Shown here: piece by piece, positions 15,084 to 18,412 of the stretch
Layout: every line of letters starts with the position of its first letter
Numbering within the stretch: the first letter of the stretch is position 1
Assembly (NCBI RefSeq): GCF_900660755.1
Contig: NZ_LR215050.1
Coordinates: 310,001-374,000, forward strand
Length of the DNA: 64,000 nt
Source: Acholeplasma hippikon
GTDB lineage: Bacteria > Bacillota_I > Bacilli_A > Acholeplasmatales > Acholeplasmataceae
Reading direction: 5' to 3'
The notes under the pieces: model-generated
The model's database searches: none
What the model was told of the DNA's origin: nothing
Seen by the model: only the letters and a program-made list of their open reading frames with translations
Made by a program: the position numbers and the translations under genes

Positions 15084-15158
15084 AATTTTTCCTTTTTGTT
15101 AATAAACATATAAATTGTAACATAATTAAGCAAGAAAGTGCATAAGATTTAAAAATAA

Positions 15159-15177
15159 TTCGAATTCGAAATATAAT
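15159..15177 (+). promoter_or_regulatory. MhqR-box-like palindrome just upstream of the -10
   Basis: The 12-bp perfect palindrome TTCGAATTCGAA (15159-15170) abuts a TATAAT (15172-15177), 33 nt before the mhqO-like start. Its core matches the TCGAATTCGA centre of the published Bacillus MhqR operator (family knowledge). A MarR-type gene in the same operon makes an autoregulatory operator the natural reading. Confidence 0.75.
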
Positions 15178-15209: not shown

Positions 15210-16373
15210 ATGAACATTAAAGGTATACATCATGTGTCATCAATTGTATGGCACGCACAAGAAAACTTAGATTTTTATGCAGGCGTATTAGGATTAAAAC
15301 TAGTTAAAAAAACTGTAAATTTTGATGATGAAAGAATTTACCATACTACATTTGGTAACCATCAAGCAGACTTAGGCACATTAATGACTTTTTTCCCATG
15401 GAAGCAAAATTTTAAAGAAGGTGTGATTGGCGATGGTCAAGTTTTTAAGACAACATTTGTTATCCCTAAGGGAAGCATGTTGTTTTGGAAAGAACGTTTA
15501 GCTAAATTTAAAATTTCGTATAGTGAAGTTTCAAGATTTAATCAAATTTATTTAGTTTTTAAAGATACGCATGGTATTAATCTTGAATTAGTAGAAGATA
15601 CTTTTTATGTTAAAAATAATCATGAATTTAATGGTGTAACAAAAGATTATGCAATTCAAGGAATCATCGGAGCAACACTTTATAGTCATGATTATGAAGC
15701 TACTAAAAACTTTTTAATTGAAAAATTTAATTTAAAAGTCATTGATGAAAATAATTACTTCATTCGATTTGATGCTAATAACAATCAATTCTTAGATTTA
15801 TATAAAGAACAAACTGTTTCATCAAAGATGGGAGCAGGAACAACGCATCATATCGCATTCACGGTAACTGATGATACGTTAGTCTCATTTATCGATGTTT
15901 TAAAAGAAAGTGGAATAAATGTTGAAATAAAGGATAGAAAATACTTTAAGTCAATTTACTTTAGAGAACCGGGTGGCATTTTATTTGAATTAGCTACAGA
16001 TAAACCAGGAATGTTAATTGATGAAGATGACTCAGATGAAATTAAAATTCCTCCTCATTTCACACATCTAACTGATGAAATTAGAAATGATTTAATGCCT
16101 ATATTCGTAAGAGAAATTGATCAATTACAAACTTATAATTATCAAGATAGAGCAAGTTATGAAGATTATATTTTCCATAAAAATGTATTAGACAAGATAA
16201 ATTATTATGCAAAAGAATCAAAAATTAGAGCACTTACTGAAGCAGAGTTAATTGAACGTGACAAATTAAGAAAAGTATATGTGAAGCTAATCGTTGGTCA
16301 AGTTAAACAAAACTTAGAAAATGTATCTGTTGAAGATAAAGATGGAAACATCAGTAGGCTAACAAAAAAATAA
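15210..16373 (+). CDS. MhqO-like ring-cleaving dioxygenase (VOC) fused to a DUF896/YnzC-like domain
   Basis: 387 residues. The first ~300 are two paired glyoxalase/VOC modules of the MhqO type, with metal-ligand candidates in GIHHVSSIV, TTHHIAFTV and GGILFELATD; these enzymes act on hydroquinone or glutathione-type adducts. The normal family end (IPPHFTHLTDEIRNDLMPI) is passed, and residues about 325-387 then match the DUF896/YnzC pattern: INYYAKESKIRALTEAEL, RDKLRKVYVK, LENVSVEDKDGN. MhqO homologues are about 312 residues, so the ~75 extra residues fit a fusion. First gene of a four-gene operon; the RBS before 15210 is AAAAGGAAG. Confidence 0.88.
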   Translation: MNIKGIHHVSSIVWHAQENLDFYAGVLGLKLVKKTVNFDDERIYHTTFGNHQADLGTLMTFFPWKQNFKEGVIGDGQVFKTTFVIPKGSMLFWKERLAKFKISYSEVSRFNQIYLVFKDTHGINLELVEDTFYVKNNHEFNGVTKDYAIQGIIGATLYSHDYEATKNFLIEKFNLKVIDENNYFIRFDANNNQFLDLYKEQTVSSKMGAGTTHHIAFTVTDDTLVSFIDVLKESGINVEIKDRKYFKSIYFREPGGILFELATDKPGMLIDEDDSDEIKIPPHFTHLTDEIRNDLMPIFVREIDQLQTYNYQDRASYEDYIFHKNVLDKINYYAKESKIRALTEAELIERDKLRKVYVKLIVGQVKQNLENVSVEDKDGNISRLTKK

Positions 16374-16384
16374 GGAGATAAGCT

Positions 16385-17371
16385 ATGGATAATATTTTAG
16401 GAATGCACCATGTAACAGCAATTACTTCAAGTGCACCAAAAATTTACAGATTTTTTACAGATATTTTAGGTATGAGAATGGTCAAAAAGACTGTTAATCA
16501 AGATGATATTCAAACCTATCATTTATATTTTGCTGATGATAGAGGAAATCCAGGAACAACGATGACGTTTTTTGACTTTAAAGGCATACGTCGTGCAGTA
16601 CATGGTAATAATGAAGTCTCACGCACCACATTCCGTGTGCCAAGTGATGAAGCAATTTATTATTTTGAAAAAAGATTTGTTAAATATGAAATTAAACATC
16701 AAAAACCGTATAAATTATTTAATAAACTTATGATTAATTTTGAAGATTTTGATGGACAACGTTATGCACTAATTAGTGATGAAACAAAAGCAAGCTATGA
16801 TAAAGGAACTCCTTGGTTTAATGGACCTGTTCCAAATGAATTTGGTATTATTGGTTTAGGACCAGTATTTATGCGTGCAAAAGATTTAGAACGAATGGAG
16901 CGTATATTAACTGATATTTTAGGTTTCAGAAAAGTAGAGAAAGAAAATGCATTCTATTTATATGAAGTTAATGTCGGTGGTAACAATGAATCTGTGATTA
17001 TAGAACATAATTTACTTTTACCAAATGCTGTTCAAGGATTTGGTGGTGTGCACCATATTGCATTTAGAGTGAAAAATAGAGAAGAAATGGCCAAGTGGGA
17101 AGATTTCTTTGAATCATTTGGTATTCCAAATAGTGGTTTTGTTGATCGATATTATTTTAGAAGTTTATATACAAGATTATATCCAAATATCTTATTTGAG
17201 ATTGCAACAGATGACCCAGGATTCATCGATGATGAAGATACTTATGATATTTTGGGTGAGAATCTAACACTACCGCCTTTATATAAAAATAGAAGTGAAT
17301 ATGTGTATAGTGTGATACAATTATTTGATTCATCTGATGCAAATAAAAAACGTGAAAAAGAATACTTGTGA
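16385..17371 (+). CDS. MhqO-like ring-cleaving dioxygenase (VOC family)
   Basis: Second member of the same family, 328 residues, without the DUF896-like tail. Paired VOC modules show GMHHVTAITSSAPK at the N-terminus (His ligand), VHHIAFRVK in the second half and LFEIATDDPGF as the Glu-bearing end motif. It lies 11 nt after the fused paralogue with AAGGAGAT as RBS. In Bacillus, paralogues MhqA/MhqO protect against quinones and thiol-depleting electrophiles; the same role is inferred here. Confidence 0.9.
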   Translation: MDNILGMHHVTAITSSAPKIYRFFTDILGMRMVKKTVNQDDIQTYHLYFADDRGNPGTTMTFFDFKGIRRAVHGNNEVSRTTFRVPSDEAIYYFEKRFVKYEIKHQKPYKLFNKLMINFEDFDGQRYALISDETKASYDKGTPWFNGPVPNEFGIIGLGPVFMRAKDLERMERILTDILGFRKVEKENAFYLYEVNVGGNNESVIIEHNLLLPNAVQGFGGVHHIAFRVKNREEMAKWEDFFESFGIPNSGFVDRYYFRSLYTRLYPNILFEIATDDPGFIDDEDTYDILGENLTLPPLYKNRSEYVYSVIQLFDSSDANKKREKEYL

Positions 17372-17379
17372 GGCATCTG

Positions 17380-17808
17380 ATGGAACAAGATAGTTTAAAG
17401 ACAATGCGAATTTTGTTTAGAGCACATCAAGCAGTTGAAACCTACGCAAAAAAAGACATTCTTTCATATGGTTTAACTTTAAATGAGTTTACAGCTTTAG
17501 AAGTTTTGTATCACAAGGGTAAACTTCCTGTACAAAGTGTGTGCGATGCAGTTTTAATTCCAAATTCATCGATGACATATGTGTTAGACAAACTTGAAGT
17601 TAAAAAGTTAATTACAAGAACTCAAGACAAATTAGATAAAAGAACTTACTATGTTGAGTTATCAGAAAATGGTTTAAATTTTTCAAATGAAATTTTTCCA
17701 AAGCACTATGAACATATGAGAAAAGTATTTGATATACTCTCAACAAATGAACAAGAATCACTTAATCAATTATTAAAAAAAATCGGTTATTTTGCTAAAG
17801 GAGATTAA
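17380..17808 (+). CDS. MarR-family regulator, MhqR-like
   Basis: 142-residue winged-helix regulator. The HTH spans about residues 43-70 (LPVQSVCDAVLIPNSSMTY) and is followed by the wing DKLDKRTYYVEL. The start at 17380 is chosen because GAGG lies 6 nt upstream; the GTG at 17368 lies before that RBS and overlaps the previous stop. A single Cys (VCDAV, inside the HTH) could be a thiol sensor, but this is a guess. Position within an mhqO/mhqD-type operon with a palindrome at its promoter argues for an MhqR-type repressor. Confidence 0.88.
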   Translation: MEQDSLKTMRILFRAHQAVETYAKKDILSYGLTLNEFTALEVLYHKGKLPVQSVCDAVLIPNSSMTYVLDKLEVKKLITRTQDKLDKRTYYVELSENGLNFSNEIFPKHYEHMRKVFDILSTNEQESLNQLLKKIGYFAKGD

Positions 17809-17812
17809 AAAA

Positions 17813-18412
17813 ATGAAGTATTACGTTAGAAATAAAAAATCAAATAAGACGCAATTACTTTTTCATGGTACAGGTGGAAGTTATAGAGATTTAATCTCAA
17901 TTGCAGAATATATAGATCCAAGTTCAAACTATATTGCTTTTGAGGGAAATGAATTAGAAGAAGGCATGCGTCGTTTCTTTAAACGACATGCAATTGGTAA
18001 ATTTGATATCCCTAACTTAGAATTAAATACAACTGAACTTGATAAGGATATCAAAGATATTAAACAAATGAATGAATTTAAAGATACTAACTTTGTTGCA
18101 ATGGGTTTTTCAAATGGTGCAAATATTTTAGAATCATTATTTCAAATGTATCCAGATAGTCTAAAAAACTTCATGTTGTTAAGTCCTGTATATGTAAGAA
18201 AAGATTTGAAATTTAAGGATTTAACAGGACTTAATATCTTAATTGTTACATCATATAATGATCCATATACAACTAAAAAAGACCTTGAGTTATTAATTAA
18301 TGACTTAAAAGATGCAAATGCGAATGTGGATCTATATTTACATGATGCTGGACATCGTTTAACTGAAGGGGCATTAAATTATGCAAAAGATTGGTATTTT
18401 AGAAATATTTAA
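17813..18412 (+). CDS. MhqD-like hydrolase/carboxylesterase
   Basis: 199-residue alpha/beta hydrolase. Visible are the oxyanion motif LLFHGTGGSYRDL, nucleophile elbow GFSNGANI, an Asp in TSYNDPYTT and His in DAGHRLT. The pattern, including NELEEGMRRFFKR, closely follows Bacillus MhqD. It starts 5 nt after the MarR-type gene with AAAGGAG as RBS; the TTG at 17792 is rejected. Likely role: hydrolysis of products or adducts of quinone detoxification, in the cytoplasm. Confidence 0.88.
   Translation: MKYYVRNKKSNKTQLLFHGTGGSYRDLISIAEYIDPSSNYIAFEGNELEEGMRRFFKRHAIGKFDIPNLELNTTELDKDIKDIKQMNEFKDTNFVAMGFSNGANILESLFQMYPDSLKNFMLLSPVYVRKDLKFKDLTGLNILIVTSYNDPYTTKKDLELLINDLKDANANVDLYLHDAGHRLTEGALNYAKDWYFRNI

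Follow-up and report, generated by a model that had tools for sequence, protein, structure and literature searches.

An MhqO-type dioxygenase fused to a DUF896 hairpin in a putative MhqR-type operon of Acholeplasma hippikon

The fusion gene and its operon

The window, that is, the whole 64,000-nucleotide stretch of Acholeplasma hippikon DNA analysed here, carries on its plus strand a 387-residue fusion gene (15210–16373), read as a single open frame with no internal stops. Residues 1–310 (15210–16139, plus strand) form a double VOC enzyme similar to MhqO, with a Pfam match to PF00903 (Glyoxalase) at 3.8e-18. The phmmer alignment with Bacillus subtilis MhqO (3OAJ) has an E-value of 7.7e-77 and 43% identity, and since it covers residues 4–309, the MhqO part stops where its homologues stop. 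The structural comparison by Foldseek agrees (TMt 0.92, rmsd 1.8 A). The metal ligands of 3OAJ are His11, His218 and Glu266 (PMC12673573); these correspond to H8, H214 and E260 of the fusion, so that the His-His-Glu site is intact, and all three ligands are invariant across 16 homologues. A linker of constant length in all fused orthologues (residues 311–325, 16140–16184, plus strand) leads to the DUF896 domain (residues 326–380, 16185–16349, plus strand), which comprises a two-helix hairpin and an EDKDGN stretch.

DUF896 is a widespread family with solved structures and, to our knowledge, no known function. Its members are usually free-standing proteins of about 60–90 residues, a habit that lies outside the definition of the PF05979 profile; the domain described here is instead the C-terminal part of a 387-residue protein. 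Within the full protein, residues 326–380 match PF05979 with 50.7 bits (E 1.6e-13), about twice the curated gathering cut-off of 24.2 bits, and the tail alone scores 55.5 bits. A profile built solely from free-standing DUF896 proteins of other families still gives 40.8 bits. A chance match was considered and rejected, as none of 2000 shuffled tails scored above 12.9 bits. In the structural model, the tail forms helices at 314–339 and 344–368 with pLDDT of about 88–95. Folded alone, it has the YnzC structure 3BHP as its top PDB match (prob 0.99, TMt 0.79, rmsd 1.6), with an E-value of 0.32, as expected of so short a hairpin. The domain has no cysteine and is therefore not itself a thiol switch. 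The MhqO–DUF896 fusion proposed in the earlier note is real: both Pfam domains lie in one frame, the boundaries fall where they had been placed, and the profile search and structure prediction suggested there both identify the tail as DUF896 with the two-helix YnzC fold.

Three genes follow on the plus strand. The first (16385–17371) encodes an MhqO-type paralogue of 328 residues (PF00903, E 8.4e-12); Pfam finds no DUF896 domain in it, in line with the earlier reading of this neighbour as tail-less. The second (17368–17808) encodes a MarR-family regulator (PF01047, 4.7e-10), presumed to be MhqR, whose downstream position is conserved. The third (17792–18412) encodes an MhqD-like carboxylesterase, matched by NF047577 (quino_deg_MhqD) at E 3.6e-33, under the equivalog cut-off. 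The order of fusion, MhqO paralogue, MarR and MhqD is the same in all fusion loci except one (genome G002), where the MhqO paralogue has moved away.

The fusion gene is preceded by a palindrome, TAATTCGAATTCGAAATA, at 15156–15173, a putative MhqR site differing by one mismatch from the orthologue consensus TATTTCGAATTCGAAATA. It is a 9-9 inverted repeat and matches the published MhqR operator of Staphylococcus aureus, TATCTCGAA-aTCGAaATA (PMC6798810). The palindrome overlaps a promoter-like element, TTAAAA-17-TATAAT (15149–15177, plus strand), including its -10-like TATAAT; this element scores 10 of 12 matches in a consensus scan, and such sites are no commoner in the region than expected by chance. 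All 12 of the order-level loci have such a palindrome 5' of the fusion gene; that of G003 lies within a long open frame, yet 5' of the start used by the other orthologues. Genome-wide, the pattern occurs once in A. hippikon (with up to 2 mismatches) and 1–5 times in its relatives, and the reversed control pattern has no site in the A. hippikon genome. Another copy stands upstream of an FMN-reductase-like gene in six genomes, and G002 has an additional one upstream of the moved paralogue. As judged from the sequences, this distribution is the shape expected of an MhqR regulon.

Two further observations concern the second site. Most Acholeplasma genomes carry a second MhqR-like palindrome 5' of the FMN-reductase-like gene (L173, L176–L179), and G001 has it there although the mhq operon is absent.

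The LexA profile (PF01726) has no match in the A. hippikon genome. Because the gene stands behind an MhqR-type operator and the LexA profile finds nothing, we infer that DUF896 in this lineage is under quinone-type rather than SOS control. The link to electrophile stress drawn in the earlier note is supported by the MarR and MhqD genes and the operator, and the SOS link that it mentioned for DUF896 does not apply to this genome.

Conservation of the architecture

The fusion gene holds the only DUF896 copy of this genome. Within the family, DUF896 is present in 12 of 88 genomes, a set identical to that of the genomes in which the fused gene has a close orthologue; a further 31 have only a distant MhqO type and no DUF896. 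The order, sampled with 160 genomes, yields 14 above-cut-off DUF896 matches, all of them MhqO fusions; one of these (G007) is split by a run of N. The survey of relatives advised in the earlier note thus finds 13 further genomes of the order that share this architecture. In other groups of the phylum, among them staphylococci and Paenibacillaceae, DUF896 lies in short frames, and no above-cut-off match is joined to an enzyme of this kind.

The junction (residues 281–326, 46 residues) is free of indels in all 12 full-length members of the order, namely this protein and 11 orthologues. Pairwise identity is 0.45 in DUF896 and 0.43–0.52 in the enzyme part, and the DUF896 dN/dS of about 0.04–0.30 indicates purifying selection, with a constraint equal to that on the enzyme. 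The core DUF896 residues L327, N331, L342, E346, R354 and Y357 are invariant in the 12 fused proteins. The earlier note named a frameshift as a way in which the idea could fail. The reading that two genes were merged by a frameshift or by an assembly artefact has practically no chance of being correct. Nothing was found in its favour, and it is refuted by the 11 full-length orthologues with their indel-free junction, by the recurrence of the architecture in the 13 other genomes of the order, by the selection acting on the tail and by the absence of free DUF896 from all of those fusion genomes.

The same comparisons bear on what the tail does. The main rival to the explanation given below is that the hairpin has become a private oligomerisation or stability element of the dioxygenase and no longer does the job of free DUF896. 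A linker of constant length would suit a packed structural part, and in the alignment the DVTPxKL end, a usual feature of free DUF896, has been lost from the fused copies. Moreover, the Erysipelothrix-type orthologues (L054, L059, L152–L155) keep the spacing and carry a shortened, hairpin-like tail below the DUF896 threshold, one of them being tail-less. Since these orthologues keep the enzyme with a shortened tail or none, the enzyme does not depend on the tail in every lineage, and MhqO without a tail is the norm in other bacteria. However, a private element does not readily account for the six invariant core residues, and it would make coincidental the independent operon link between free DUF896 and MhqO described in the next section. 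This reading is rather unlikely. The preferred explanation, a hairpin that works with partners, fits the fixed linker, by which the hairpin would be held in a set position, and the invariant residues, which would mark a shared partner or surface. In a tree of the fused tails and the free DUF896 groups (74 columns), long branches meet, and no particular free group stands out as the source of the fused tails.

Free-standing DUF896 genes in two contexts

A test independent of the fusion is offered by an extra DUF896 paralogue, here called type 2, found in many Paenibacillaceae and staphylococci. The type-1 genes correspond to classical YnzC, with lexA within 1.5 kb in all 30 staphylococcal loci fetched. 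Electrophile-stress markers (MhqO, MhqD, FMN reductase, a second GAPDH, nitroreductase or a luciferase-like monooxygenase) are found no more than 1.4 kb away, on the same strand, at 27 of 32 type-2 loci of Paenibacillaceae. All five staphylococcal type-2 loci have a TetR or luciferase-like gene, again on the same strand and within 1.4 kb. Such markers occur at none of 48 loci with lexA-type or other DUF896 genes. These counts are to be read in the light of some markers having been picked from the very loci they count, and of related genomes not being independent; with markers fixed beforehand (MhqO, MhqD and FMN reductase), the comparison is 15 of 32 Paenibacillaceae loci against 0 of 48. In five Paenibacillaceae loci (L180, L181, L183, L189 and L190), mhqO itself lies inside the apparent operon, and in L180 and L189 the gene order is mhqO-mhqD-gap-DUF896. 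The neighbour families were confirmed by Pfam on examples. Loci with no marker include surroundings with catalase and a Dps-like gene (L188, L199) or with Hcp (L208).

Several side observations can be made on these loci. Many Paenibacillaceae (L180–L212) have the extra DUF896 gene together with FMN reductase and a second GAPDH, or with mhqO-mhqD, GAPDH being found at 16 loci; these loci look like an operon for backup glycolysis and quinone detoxification. In L208 (4525–5814), a hybrid-cluster-protein (Prismane) gene is divergent from a DUF896 paralogue, which hints at nitrosative stress. The staphylococcal loci (L147–L151) contain TetR, a luciferase-like monooxygenase (TIGR03571) and DUF896, with VOC and NmrA-like genes adjoining in most; the monooxygenase is absent in L147 and L151. 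Free-standing DUF896 is also retained in many strongly reduced genomes (0.7–1.6 Mb) of one family of the class.

These contexts bear on a further possibility, that the tail serves the SOS response, as is thought for YnzC, and that the fusion merely borrows a promoter. Free YnzC is indeed a LexA-regulon gene, and in Bacillus pumilus ynzC, listed under the LexA heading, rises 8.9-fold with H2O2 (PMC3896406); the staphylococcal type-1 loci with their adjacent lexA point the same way. Against this stand the MhqR-type operator of the fusion, the lack of a LexA match in its genome and the absence of lexA from all 32 type-2 Paenibacillaceae loci, which together make an SOS role of the tail very unlikely.

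Published expression data favour a response of DUF896 genes to electrophiles. In S. aureus, no gene is induced more strongly by citral than SAOUHSC_02893, which is annotated as DUF896 and rises by a factor of 2^9.7 (PMC10213633). The genes SACOL2588-89, described as 'unknown function, TetR1 regulon', are among the S. aureus operons most induced by methylhydroquinone (510–536-fold) and by HOSCN (1059–1304-fold) (PMC6798810, PMC10715087). They are probably identical to SAOUHSC_02892-93, the staphylococcal DUF896 operon, because locus-tag interpolation (anchored at SACOL2578/SAOUHSC_02880 and SACOL2669/SAOUHSC_02983), the matching induction and the TetR neighbours in staphylococcal genomes agree; no direct statement equating the two was found in the literature searched.

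Other reports touch on DUF896 from different directions. Spr1327 (DUF896) is among the potentially essential proteins of Streptococcus pneumoniae (PMC4143570), and one of three replicates of a Streptococcus mutans MecA interactome showed a DUF896 protein at about 5-fold enrichment (PMC10845952). The latter would suit a tail acting as a degradation or regulatory handle, for example one by which an adaptor feeds the enzyme to Clp proteases after stress. The enrichment is a single weak observation, and a handle of this kind is improbable.

No literature was found on an MhqO–DUF896 fusion, nor any joining Acholeplasma, glyoxalase and dioxygenase, and none that names DUF896 an electrophile-stress family. 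The earlier note regarded the tie between DUF896 and electrophile stress as the first known to it. Induction of a DUF896 gene by an electrophile had already been published in the citral study; what stands of the claim is the connection to the family, which is undrawn in the literature searched.

Proposed role and comparison with known systems

The best explanation of these computed results is as follows. The fusion would be an extradiol dioxygenase of the MhqO type, with hydroquinone- or quinone-type electrophiles as the compounds it cleaves. This substrate class is suggested by its relatives and rests on B. subtilis genetics, since a heterologous MhqO showed no activity in vitro towards the compounds assayed (PMC12673573). 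The gene would head an MhqR-type operon that is switched on when a quinone frees the palindrome at 15156–15173 of its MarR repressor, presumably the regulator encoded downstream. The YnzC-fold hairpin tethered to the C-terminus of the dioxygenase is most likely a protein-interaction or adaptor module cooperating with electrophile-detoxifying oxidoreductases. It may place or stabilise these enzymes, or pass them on to a partner. The module would be fixed in cis in Acholeplasma and its order, and a module of the same kind would be supplied in trans from the detoxification operons of Paenibacillus and staphylococci. Taken as a whole, this explanation has about an even chance of being right.

Because DUF896 occurs both as a fixed fusion tail and as free genes beside the same kinds of enzyme, a role in electrophile stress can be proposed for it. 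This family, filed under the DNA-damage response, probably also serves in the defence against reactive chemicals. The broader proposal is that a second, electrophile-stress branch of DUF896 extends across Bacillota, with hairpin proteins or tails partnering MhqO, FMN reductase, luciferase-like monooxygenase and backup GAPDH, and with the Acholeplasma fusion as the covalent version, which would point out a direct partner; it is a serious possibility, falling just short of an even chance. Through the fusion, MhqO is named as a physical partner of DUF896, and exposure to quinones and other electrophiles as the stress. The Paenibacillus and staphylococcal operons provide independent, testable cases for its role, and the finding may account for part of SACOL2588-89, one of the operons most induced in S. 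aureus under thiol stress.

Among known systems, B. subtilis MhqO (3OAJ) and its MhqR regulon share with the fusion the double-VOC fold, the metal ligands, the MarR and MhqD partners and the operator type; the B. subtilis protein ends where the Acholeplasma protein runs on into DUF896. The YnzC/UPF0291/DUF896 proteins (PF05979; 2HEP, 3BHP) have the helical hairpin and the core residues in common with the fusion tail. However, YnzC is a free, LexA-linked protein of 60–90 residues, whereas the fusion tail is C-terminal in a dioxygenase, MhqR-linked and without the DVTP end. The S. aureus operon SACOL2588-89/SAOUHSC_02892-93, if the two are indeed the same, likewise contains DUF896 and answers quinones and other thiol-reactive compounds; its DUF896 is free-standing and under TetR control, whereas the Acholeplasma fusion would be under MarR. 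A luciferase-like monooxygenase is the DUF896 partner in three of the five staphylococcal loci, unlike in Acholeplasma. Finally, the S. aureus mhqRED operon also places a MarR regulator, a ring-cleavage dioxygenase and a carboxylesterase under one operator, and the Acholeplasma operon differs from it in its gene order, its second dioxygenase and its DUF896 tail.
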